Below, piece after piece: positions 30,077 to 33,187 of a DNA stretch of 64,000 bases. The notes under the pieces are model-generated. The model was given only the letters and a program-made list of their open reading frames with translations, did no database searches and was not told the DNA's origin. The position numbers and the translations under genes are program-made. Numbering within the stretch: the stretch's first letter is position 1; each line of letters begins with the position of its first letter. Source of the stretch: Rhodothermales bacterium (GTDB lineage Bacteria; Bacteroidota; Rhodothermia; Rhodothermales; JANQRZ01); the NCBI GenBank assembly GCA_039944855.1, contig JBDUXZ010000029.1:1-64000 (forward strand). The letters are read 5' to 3'.

Positions 30077-30775
30077 ATGTCGAAACGCCCCCTCATCACC
30101 GAACGCGACGTCCGCCGCGCCCACGACGCCGGGCAGCGCGCGCTCGCGATCGCCCCGAACGCGCTCGTCACCGCCCTCGCCCGCGACTTCGCTCGCGACC
30201 ACGGCATCGCCCTCACTGAGCGCGCCGAGCCGGAAGCGAAGCCCGACGGTACGCCCGACTGCGGCTGCGCGCCCGCCGCCCCCTGCGGTTGCCACGATGC
30301 CCCTCCCAACACGCTCGCGCTCGGCTGCGACCACGCCGGCTTCGCCTACAAACAAGCCCTCGCCGACCACGCTCGCAGCCTCGGTTGGACCGTCACCGAC
30401 GTCGGCACCGACTCCGATGCTCGCTGCGACTACCCCGACTTCGCGTACGCCGTCGCCCGGCTCGTCGCGCTCGGCGAGGTCCAACTCGGGCTGATGATCG
30501 ACGGCGTCGGCGTCGGCTCAGCGATGGTGATGAACAAAGTCCCGACGGTCCGCGCGGCGTGCTGCGCGAGCGAGTTTGCCGCCTTCAACGCCCGCGCCCA
30601 CAACGACGCGAACGTGCTCACGCTCGGGAGCCGGACCGAGGGCATCGAGGTCTGCAAAGGAATCCTATATACGTTCCTCAAGACCGACTTCGAGGGCGGG
30701 CGCCACGCCGAACGCGTGCAGAAGATCGCCGACGTCGAGGTCCGCTTCCTCCCCGGCTCGCCGGACGCGCTGTGA
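30077..30775 (+). CDS. RpiB/LacAB-like protein with N-terminal module and Cys cluster
   Basis: A 232-residue protein in three parts. Residues ~6-46 (LITERDVRRAHDAGQ to DHGI) form a module that recurs at the C-terminus of the next gene product. Residues 61-72, DCGCAPAAPCGC, hold four Cys that could bind a metal or Fe-S cluster. Residues ~78-225 are an RpiB-type sugar-phosphate isomerase fold: LALGCDHAGFAYK, YPDFAYAVARLV, RAHNDANVLTLGSR, FEGGRHAERVQKI. The catalytic Cys of RpiB (ICGTGIG) is Asp142 here (MIDGVGVGS), so the chemistry may differ. RpiB variants occur in sugar-phosphate bacterial microcompartment loci, but no shell gene is visible here. Its stop overlaps the next start (GTGA), so the two are translated together. 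Confidence 0.85.
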   Translation: MSKRPLITERDVRRAHDAGQRALAIAPNALVTALARDFARDHGIALTERAEPEAKPDGTPDCGCAPAAPCGCHDAPPNTLALGCDHAGFAYKQALADHARSLGWTVTDVGTDSDARCDYPDFAYAVARLVALGEVQLGLMIDGVGVGSAMVMNKVPTVRAACCASEFAAFNARAHNDANVLTLGSRTEGIEVCKGILYTFLKTDFEGGRHAERVQKIADVEVRFLPGSPDAL

Positions 30776-31449
30776 TTCAGCCCGACGCAATCCCCGTCCG
30801 CATTGCCCGCTCTCGCATCGCCCTCGCTGCGCCCGACGTAGCGGCGCTTTTCGGGAAAGGCTATGCCCTGCGCGGCGCCGAGCGCGTGCTCGTATCGAGG
30901 ACCGGAACGCGCGAAGTCAGCGTGCCCGTCGCGGCTGCGAAGTCGACCGGCCTCGTGCTCGACGCGCTCGACCGTGACGCGCTCGGCGACGGCCCGCCGC
31001 TCCGGCTGCGCGGCCCGGCCGGTTCGGTCGCCGCCCCGACGGCCGAGCCGGTGCGCCGCGCGCTCGCGCTCCCCGCCGGGCTGATCCGCGCGTGGCGGCT
31101 CGACGCCGGCCGCGTCGTCACGGTGCAGGCGGGGGCCGTCGCTTTCGGCGATGTCATCGTTGAGGAGGGCGACGGACACGTCCGGCTCGACCGCGCCGAC
31201 GCGCTCGCGGCCGGGCTCGCCGACGGCGATACGGTGCGGTGGAACGCTCAACTCGTCCTCGCCTCTCCCCCCCTCGCCCCGACCGATGCCGCCGCCCCGA
31301 AGGTCCGCGCGACGGGCCGCCTCATCACGGAGAACGACGTGCGGCAGGCGCGGCTGAAGGGGCAAAAAATCGTCCTCGGGCCGGGCCACATCATCACGCC
31401 TGCCGCCCGCAGCCTGGGCCGCGAACTCGGCGTCCTCCTCGATGCCTGA
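30772..31449 (+). CDS. PduL-like protein with degenerate metal site
   Basis: A 225-residue protein starting at a GTG that overlaps the RpiB-like stop. Residues ~8-180 follow the two-barrel plan of PduL phosphate acyltransferases: IPVRIARSRIALAAPD then VAALFGKGYAL (compare SNRHIHLS then ALFGxGY), a middle GPAGSVAAPTAEP, and a second copy GHVRLDRADALAAGLADGD (compare RHIHMTPEDA then GxKDGD). The zinc His residues are mostly lost: the first HxH is RxA and the second HxH is HxR, so normal phosphotransacylase activity is doubtful. Residues 182-225 (GRLITENDVRQARLKGQ to LGVLLDA) match the N-terminal module of the upstream protein at 17 of 40 positions. Function unknown; a microcompartment-related origin is inference. 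Confidence 0.7.
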   Translation: MIQPDAIPVRIARSRIALAAPDVAALFGKGYALRGAERVLVSRTGTREVSVPVAAAKSTGLVLDALDRDALGDGPPLRLRGPAGSVAAPTAEPVRRALALPAGLIRAWRLDAGRVVTVQAGAVAFGDVIVEEGDGHVRLDRADALAAGLADGDTVRWNAQLVLASPPLAPTDAAAPKVRATGRLITENDVRQARLKGQKIVLGPGHIITPAARSLGRELGVLLDA

Positions 31450-31486
31450 CGGGCTATCTTCCGCGGCTCCACCCACGTCCTGCCCT

Positions 31487-33187
31487 ATGCCCCGGCTCCT
31501 CCCCGTCCTCGCCTTCCTTCTGCTCGCGCTGCCCGTGCGGGCGCAGAACGCCTCGCCCATCGACCCCGGCGTGCGGCCGGTCACGCGCACGTTCGCCATC
31601 ACGAACGCCCGCGTCATCCCCGAGCCGGGCCGCGTGCTCGACCGCGCCACCGTCGTCGTCCGCGACGGGCTGATCGAAGCGGTGGGGCCGAACGTGACGC
31701 CGCCGTTCGATGCCGAGATCATCGAGGGCGATTCGCTGACGGTCTACGCCGGGTTCATCGACGGGCTCGGCCACGCCGCGATTCCCGAGGTGAAGGATGA
31801 CGGCGACGATGAGAAAGTCCGCGACCCCGGCGATCCGCCCCGCGACCGCGCCGGCATCCAGCCCGACCGCTCCGCCCGCGCCCTGCTCGACCCCACCGAC
31901 GGCTCCGTCGAAGCGCTGCGGAAGCTCGGATTCACGGTTGCCCACGCTGTCCCGCGCGACGGGATGCTGGCAGGGCAAGGCGTCGTGATTCTGCTCGCGG
32001 GCGACGACGCCGATGCGCTCGTGCTGCGCGACGCCTCCTCCCTCTTCGCCCAGTTCGACAGCGCGTCCGGCGTGTATCCGGCCACGCCGATGGGCATCCT
32101 CGCCGTCCTCCGCCAGCTCGTCCGCGACGCCGAGCGGCGGCAGGAGGGCGCTCGCCTCTACGCCGAGAACCCGGCCGGCCTCGGCCGCCCGGACTACGAC
32201 CCCGCCCTCGCCGCGCTCGCCCCCACGATGTCCGGCGACCGGCCCGTGTTCTTCTCCGTGGACGACGTGCTCGAAGCCCACCGCGCGCTCGGCATCGCCG
32301 CCGAACTCGGCCTCCCGCTCGTGCTCGGCGGCCTCCGCGAGAGCTCGCACCTGACCGACAAGCTCGCCGCGGCCGACGTGCCCGTCTTCGCCGCCCTCGC
32401 TCTGCCGGAAGCCGAAAAAGATTCGACGGCGACGGACTCCGTAGCCGTCGCGCCCGCCCAAGTTTTCATCACCGAGCGCCGCACACGGTCCTACGCCGAC
32501 GTGGACGACGAAGTGAACGCGCTGAAGGCGAAGCGGCGCGAAGCCATCGCCCTGTACGAGCGAAACGCGGCCACGCTCCACGCCGCTGGCATCCCCTTCG
32601 GCTTCGCCACGCTCGACGCCAAGCCGGGTGACATCCGCGAGAACCTGCGCCGGATTGTCGCCGCCGGGCTCTCCGAGGACGACGCCCTCGCCGCGCTCAC
32701 CACGACGCCTGCCGCCCTCCTCGGGCTCGACCGCAGCCTCGGCACGGTCGAGCCCGGCAAGATGGCCAACCTCGTCGTCACGCAGGGCTCGTACTTCGCC
32801 GAGGATGCTCCCGTCCGCTTCGTGTTCGTCGACGGGCAGCGGTTCGAGATCGACGAAGACGCGGCGTTCGACCCCACGGCTGAGGTCGTTGCGGCGGGGA
32901 CGTGGGACTACCGCGTCGTCTTCGACGGCGGCGTGCAGACGGGGACGATGACGCTCACCGACGACGGCGGCACGCTCGGTGGGACCCTTACGGTCGAGGA
33001 CGGCTCCGCGCTCACGATGGAGGGCGTGACGCTCACCGGCAACCGGCTCGTGTTCCGCCTGCCCGAAACGCCGTTCGGCCCCCTCGACGTCTCCGGCCTC
33101 ATCGCGGGCGACACGTATACCGCCGAGGTCACGGGGCCAGGCGCGCCCGATCTCACGCTCAGCGCCACCCGCCGCCCCGAGAATTAA
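31487..33187 (+). CDS. exported amidohydrolase-fold protein, metal site incomplete
   Basis: A 566-residue exported protein (signal peptide MPRLLPVLAFLLLALPVRAQ). The composite beta-sandwich/TIM-barrel fold of imidazolonepropionase-like amidohydrolases is visible in TFAITNARVIPEPGRVLD, VVVRDGLIEAVGP, and at the C-terminal side AALTTTPAALLGLDRSLGTV and PGKMANLVV. The metal motif, usually IDaHsH, reads IDGLGH, so the first His is Leu. A further beta domain (~475-565, YRVVFDGGVQTGTMTLTDD) follows. It is the first of three consecutive amidohydrolase genes in one orientation, separated by 45 and 19 bases. It may be a non-catalytic partner of the second protein. Confidence 0.85.
   Translation: MPRLLPVLAFLLLALPVRAQNASPIDPGVRPVTRTFAITNARVIPEPGRVLDRATVVVRDGLIEAVGPNVTPPFDAEIIEGDSLTVYAGFIDGLGHAAIPEVKDDGDDEKVRDPGDPPRDRAGIQPDRSARALLDPTDGSVEALRKLGFTVAHAVPRDGMLAGQGVVILLAGDDADALVLRDASSLFAQFDSASGVYPATPMGILAVLRQLVRDAERRQEGARLYAENPAGLGRPDYDPALAALAPTMSGDRPVFFSVDDVLEAHRALGIAAELGLPLVLGGLRESSHLTDKLAAADVPVFAALALPEAEKDSTATDSVAVAPAQVFITERRTRSYADVDDEVNALKAKRREAIALYERNAATLHAAGIPFGFATLDAKPGDIRENLRRIVAAGLSEDDALAALTTTPAALLGLDRSLGTVEPGKMANLVVTQGSYFAEDAPVRFVFVDGQRFEIDEDAAFDPTAEVVAAGTWDYRVVFDGGVQTGTMTLTDDGGTLGGTLTVEDGSALTMEGVTLTGNRLVFRLPETPFGPLDVSGLIAGDTYTAEVTGPGAPDLTLSATRRPEN

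Follow-up and report, generated by a model that had tools for sequence, protein, structure and literature searches.

What joins two proteins, encoded by overlapping genes, that carry the same short module at opposite ends? The question is raised by a gene pair in the window, a stretch of 64,000 nucleotides from a Rhodothermales bacterium. The original prediction read the module as a docking or encapsulation element, serving either a two-protein assembly or a reduced microcompartment (BMC) pathway with no shell protein gene present.

The gene pair and its shared module

The first gene (30077-30775, plus strand) encodes an RpiB-like protein of 232 residues, which consists of an N-terminal putative docking module, a linker and an RpiB catalytic domain. 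The second gene (30772-31449, plus strand, GTG start) encodes a PduL-like pseudo-enzyme of 225 residues that is recognized by a profile-profile match to PduL. As predicted, the two genes overlap by four bases (GTGA, 30772-30775, plus strand). The counts given originally for the common module, about 40 residues with 17 identities, also proved exact: in a BLASTP comparison of the pair, RpiB residues 6-46 align to residues 184-223 of the second protein with 17/41 identities (E 1e-6), and the Smith-Waterman score of 77 was reached in none of 2000 shuffles (maximum 71; Gumbel p ~7e-5).

The AlphaFold2 models place the same two helices in both copies, rather than the lack of structural similarity that the original prediction had named as evidence against itself. 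Copy 1 (30089-30220, plus strand; RpiB residues 5-48), delimited by TIGR02536 and EutQ matches, module profiles and AlphaFold2, has helices at residues 9-17 and 33-41 and a pLDDT of ~95. Copy 2 (31318-31443, plus strand; residues 183-224 of the PduL-like protein), delimited by BLASTP, module profiles and AlphaFold2, has helices at residues 187-195 and 210-219 and a pLDDT of ~69-87, in a model the rest of which failed. Both copies are thus predicted to have the two-helix structure of the EutQ-type H1/H2 module. A classical encapsulation peptide is an amphipathic helix of 15-20 residues, a single short helix with a linker, and the module, a two-helix domain of 44 residues, does not have this form. 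In the module of the PduL-like protein dN/dS is 0.08-0.28.

The RpiB-like protein belongs to the RpiB family by both score and fold. It matches PF02502 with 3.4e-48 and TIGR01120 (rpiB) with 141.3 bits against a cut-off of 138.65, and its AlphaFold2 model, built with 27 sequences, has a mean pLDDT of 91.4 and a TM(target) of 0.97 to E. coli RpiB (2vvr). In this model the module forms a separate two-helix domain, joined to the core (catalytic domain, residues 79-223; 30311-30745, plus strand) through a disordered linker (residues 49-78; 30221-30310, plus strand) with a pLDDT of ~52-54 at residues 51-70. Alignment to 3he8 and 3ph3 shows that ICGTG has become IDGVG, with Asp142 (codon 30500-30502, plus strand) at the position of the catalytic cysteine of ordinary RpiB. 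Asp142 is invariant across the 26 aligned module-bearing RpiBs; E. coli-type chemistry and substrate are therefore not to be assumed for this protein. The linker also holds a CGC...CGCH cysteine cluster (30257-30301, residues 61-75, CGCAPAAPCGCH). Similar CxC..H motifs are found in the linkers of other RpiBs (CGCDH in L075, CACEH in L074) and at the very C-terminus of others (CGCHE in L030, CDCHS in L032); the motif is possibly a metal or redox site.

The relationship of the second protein to PduL appears distant and is recognizable through profile comparison only. A search with PF06130 gave E 0.23 and 11.7 bits against a cut-off of 25, and the protein falls below the NCBIfam cut-offs too. Profile-profile comparison with six genuine PduLs, in contrast, gave E 1.6e-6 and a probability of 90 over residues 2-143, and the best PDB match of the PduL-like family profile is PduL itself (5cuo, E 7e-4). 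The genuine PduLs were taken from plasmid records because PF06130 matches were absent from all 60 genomes of the relatives set, our genome included. The zinc ligands of PduL (His48, His50, His157, His159 and His204) are absolutely conserved (PMC4784909). All five are missing from the PduL-like body (residues 1-160; 30772-31251, plus strand), as they are from all nine PduL-like homologues: SNRHxHLS has become ARSRIALA, RHIHM has become RRALAL, and no column of the alignment has a histidine in more than 2/9 homologues. With the zinc histidines lost and no histidine conserved, it is unlikely that the protein acts as a phosphotransacylase of the known type, and a reading as an active PduL is not supported. 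The protein is nevertheless maintained, as dN/dS in the body is ~0.24-0.35, a sign of purifying selection. In comparison with PduL (phosphate propanoyltransferase, PF06130), the pseudo-PduL has a C-terminal module in place of the N-terminal encapsulation peptide. Its AlphaFold2 model had only two sequences as input, and the body failed (mean pLDDT 39), which made a structure search with it uninformative.

In the relatives set the two genes lie side by side in 9/60 genomes, ours among them, which represent two families; both module copies are kept in the eight further genomes. The pair is also present in a second Bacteroidota lineage (MAG.504), where the body of the partner protein (L095, 10624-11322) has diverged almost beyond alignment and the C-terminal module is retained. 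This suggests that what counts in the protein is the module. The phylum-wide module search (395 genomes) gave more close double matches beside the one in MAG.504. Downstream in the window come three amidohydrolase-like genes; the first (31442-33187), whose product seems to have a signal peptide, begins where the PduL-like gene ends.

Relatives and carriers of the module

The module is homologous, as judged from profile matches, to residues 3-46 of EutQ, the region with helices H1 and H2. A module profile built without EutQ picks up these residues in E. coli EutQ (1.2e-8), together with the C-termini of two proteins from BMC loci that are annotated as flavoproteins (4e-7 and 8e-6). When 27 individual modules were compared with NCBIfam models, 24 matched TIGR02536, 13 EutQ, ten PduM and one EutT, all of them models of BMC proteins; in TIGR02536, EutT and PduM, too, the module matches an end of the family model. 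The module of the RpiB in the window matches the C-terminus of TIGR02536 (1e-6) and the N-terminus of EutQ (0.0014). The PduM matches fall on the C-terminus of the model (TIGR04493 / PF15953, 116-153; best 3e-4); the EutT match (0.0086) and a single-sequence PduM match (0.08) are both weak.

EutQ is the only module member in which H1/H2 has been dissected. In Salmonella, deletion and localization experiments showed that H1/H2 (residues 9-41) attaches EutQ to the Eut shell, a contact inferred mainly from localization (PMC12487888). In an earlier study, removal of residues 1-100 of EutQ abolished the pull-down of the shell protein EutM (PMC4827028). The module of the window and the N-terminal region of EutQ (residues 1-46, Salmonella and E. 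coli Eut) share the 44-residue two-helix form, the terminal position and the association with BMCs. However, the module is fused here to RpiB and the pseudo-PduL and in EutQ to a cupin, and the two proteins of the window are without H3/H4 (residues 63-99), the helices with which EutQ binds a cargo peptide (PMC12487888). The likeness to PduM, the linker of the Pdu microcompartment, is that of its C-terminus to the module; the main body of the protein differs. The EutQ study treats the N-terminus as part of EutQ (PMC12487888), and a full-text literature search, with many subscription papers outside it, returned no paper that makes such a link from the EutQ N-terminus to PduM or RpiB. Our comparison suggests that EutQ and PduM, linkers that were studied separately, share one docking domain, which is not reported in the literature examined.

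We also considered an origin of the module from a circularly permuted E3-binding domain (PF02817), an idea that arose from half-matches in reversed order and from one hand-made construct borrowing native linker residues. This origin was rejected as the permuted set (11/27 modules, best 9e-4) did no better than the reversed-half control (11/27, best 3.5e-4); native modules, run under a stricter E-value limit, gave 10/27 (best 4e-4). The matches to the E3-binding domain stem from helix 2 alone. The permuted module profile gave a mixed result against the PDB (1w4i at 0.008, versus 0.03 for the native profile and 0.12 for the control).

The distribution of the module follows that of shell genes. 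In the relatives set the module is present in 25/25 genomes with PF00936 shell genes and in 1/35 without them (Fisher p 5e-16, a value that overstates the evidence because the sampled genomes are related), the one exception being an assembly that is 72% complete. A sample of 395 genomes from the phylum contains 71 with the module and 80 with PF00936 shell genes, 69 genomes being common to the two groups. Eleven shell-positive genomes in this sample are without the module, and the two genomes with a module and no shell gene are one with a partial, weak match and one that is 81% complete. The association spans many families.

The module is portable. It is found at the N-terminus of RpiB in the 17 further relatives examined, and in the relatives and phylum searches it usually occurs on RpiB alone, the partner being absent. 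In two Chloroflexi BMC loci the RpiB begins with a classical encapsulation-like helix, followed by the module and then the enzyme, and the RpiB of a Wallbacteria BMC locus bears the module at its C-terminus. The search with the module alone that had been proposed originally also brought up other carriers, namely EutQ, the BMC-locus flavoproteins, a triosephosphate isomerase and a EutQ-N-like adaptor. The triosephosphate isomerase, with the module at its N-terminus (L189, 703-1647, minus strand), is encoded in the Wallbacteria genome with the module-tagged RpiB, on a different contig. Triosephosphate isomerase acts on glyceraldehyde-3-phosphate, the product of DeoC. The adaptor, a 102-residue protein from Calditrichota (L190, 1330-1638, minus strand), matches EutQ 1-100, that is, the module plus two more helices, and we read it as a putative stand-alone linker. 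Its gene lies between two BMC-H genes and adjoins a phosphate acetyltransferase-like gene and a gene for a ParA-like ATPase.

Shell genes and enzymes at six genomic places

The absence of shell protein genes is true of the window but not of the genome, as every shell match is on a contig other than contig 29, which carries the module-bearing pair. The whole-genome search suggested with the original prediction, which for BMC-T proteins covered PF00936, found a pair of neighboring BMC-H genes on contig 16 as well as three BMC-P genes, two on contig 33 and one on contig 37. A reduced pathway without a shell is thereby contradicted. Two candidate enzymes of the same organelle are encoded elsewhere: deoC on contig 5 (TIGR00126, 269 bits), with an N-terminal extension of 67 residues, and an acetylating acetaldehyde dehydrogenase (TIGR02518) on contig 41, with a C-terminal extension of ~100 residues. 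The shell and enzyme genes thus occupy six genomic places. On contig 37 a PF01791 gene lies 5 kb away from the BMC-P gene; it was considered as the DeoC of the pathway and dismissed, as its product is a class I fructose-bisphosphate aldolase and the true deoC is that of contig 5. A hydrophobic-moment test that included the extensions of DeoC and the aldehyde dehydrogenase did not discriminate between encapsulation peptides and other segments. In the BMC-H neighborhoods of six relatives (~10 kb where the contig allowed), no other query parts were found near the BMC-H pair. The second BMC-H (L006, 9945-10412) has a C-terminal extension (KELREMAREIDDFPLRGREISRATKDELVALLR) that resembles a helical domain of the SAP/Rho-N type, and this extended form recurs in relatives.

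Two described BMC types invite comparison, the sugar phosphate utilization (SPU) and the fragmented (FRAG) types (Sutter et al. 2021, PMC8217296). As in SPU BMCs, a DeoC-type aldolase (PF01791), RpiB, an acetylating aldehyde dehydrogenase and a shell are encoded in one genome. However, there is no main locus here, BMC-H and BMC-P genes are apart (contig 16 versus contigs 33 and 37), and the RpiB carries the module and has no obvious encapsulation peptide. FRAG types have dispersed shell genes, three BMC-P and no known signature enzyme (PMC8217296). Our genome resembles them in that its shell genes are dispersed over three places, with three BMC-P genes and the enzymes remote, but differs in that a cargo enzyme, RpiB, is suggested by the putative docking module.

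What the module may dock to

The reading that we consider probable is that the 40-residue module is a portable tag for docking to BMC shells, homologous to EutQ H1/H2, and that the RpiB and an inactive protein of the PduL fold bear it as cargo of a fragmented sugar-phosphate metabolosome. The docking or encapsulation element of the original prediction is largely borne out by the homology to EutQ 3-46 and the co-occurrence with shell genes. By analogy with EutQ H1/H2, each tag would bind a shell hexamer; the BMC-type RpiB would be tagged through its N-terminus and disordered linker, and the pseudo-PduL through its C-terminus. With a tag on every RpiB, we propose that the oligomeric enzyme would have several points of attachment to the shell. 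The role of the pseudo-PduL may be structural, that of a linker or scaffold, and not that of a phosphotransacylase; the gene overlap may match the amounts of the two proteins to each other. The organelle would be a metabolosome of DeoC, RpiB and acetaldehyde dehydrogenase, and a deoxyribose-phosphate pathway is what we infer from these enzymes.

An alternative explanation makes the module an element of self-association: the copies on RpiB and pseudo-PduL would pair in a private two-protein complex to whose contact the shell is irrelevant. The adjacent, overlapping genes with one copy each, kept in nine genomes of the relatives set, would fit such a complex, as would the second Bacteroidota lineage, in which the module outlasted an almost unrecognizable partner body. 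However, this explanation is unlikely, as the module tracks shell genes, EutQ H1/H2 contacts the shell (PMC12487888), and in most carriers RpiB bears the only copy, with no partner present; for the last reason the two-protein assembly of the original prediction has lost ground, as one of the two outcomes it had offered. The docking partner of the module might instead be an encapsulation peptide or the core of the cargo. PduM, which matches the module at its C-terminus, is a shell-cargo linker and was associated with cargo, not shell, when PduB residues 1-37 were missing (PMC9132943), so that in some proteins the module could have cargo as its binding partner; in addition, some RpiBs bear an encapsulation-peptide-like helix and the module together. 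In EutQ, however, the cargo peptide binds to H3/H4 and causes no shifts in H1/H2 (PMC12487888), and we regard docking to cargo, too, as improbable.

The remaining possibility concerns the second protein, which could be a functional phosphotransacylase whose active site has been rebuilt; the locus would then encode an ordinary enzyme pair with targeting tags. The fold suggested by profile comparison, the purifying selection and the absence of any other PduL (PF06130) from the genome could be read in this way; given that histidines absolutely conserved in PduL (PMC4784909) are all gone and no other is conserved, we consider it very unlikely.

If the module is a shell-docking tag, its reach may extend beyond this genome. 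On balance we lean towards the wider view that it is an unrecognized general docking domain of BMCs, present in EutQ, EutT, PduM and TIGR02536 and fused to RpiB, triosephosphate isomerase and pseudo-PduL, possibly far from the shell genes. Fragmented BMCs have been functionally cryptic because their enzymes are not encoded beside the shell genes (PMC8217296). A tag recognizable in the sequence would let BMC cargo be found genome-wide, and a module search would, if the wider view is true, reveal the cargo of fragmented BMCs. In engineered compartments, too, a compact tag that functions on either terminus of an enzyme would be of use, as a means of loading. For many of the fragmented BMCs of Bacteroidota the tag predicts a role in the handling of sugar phosphates.
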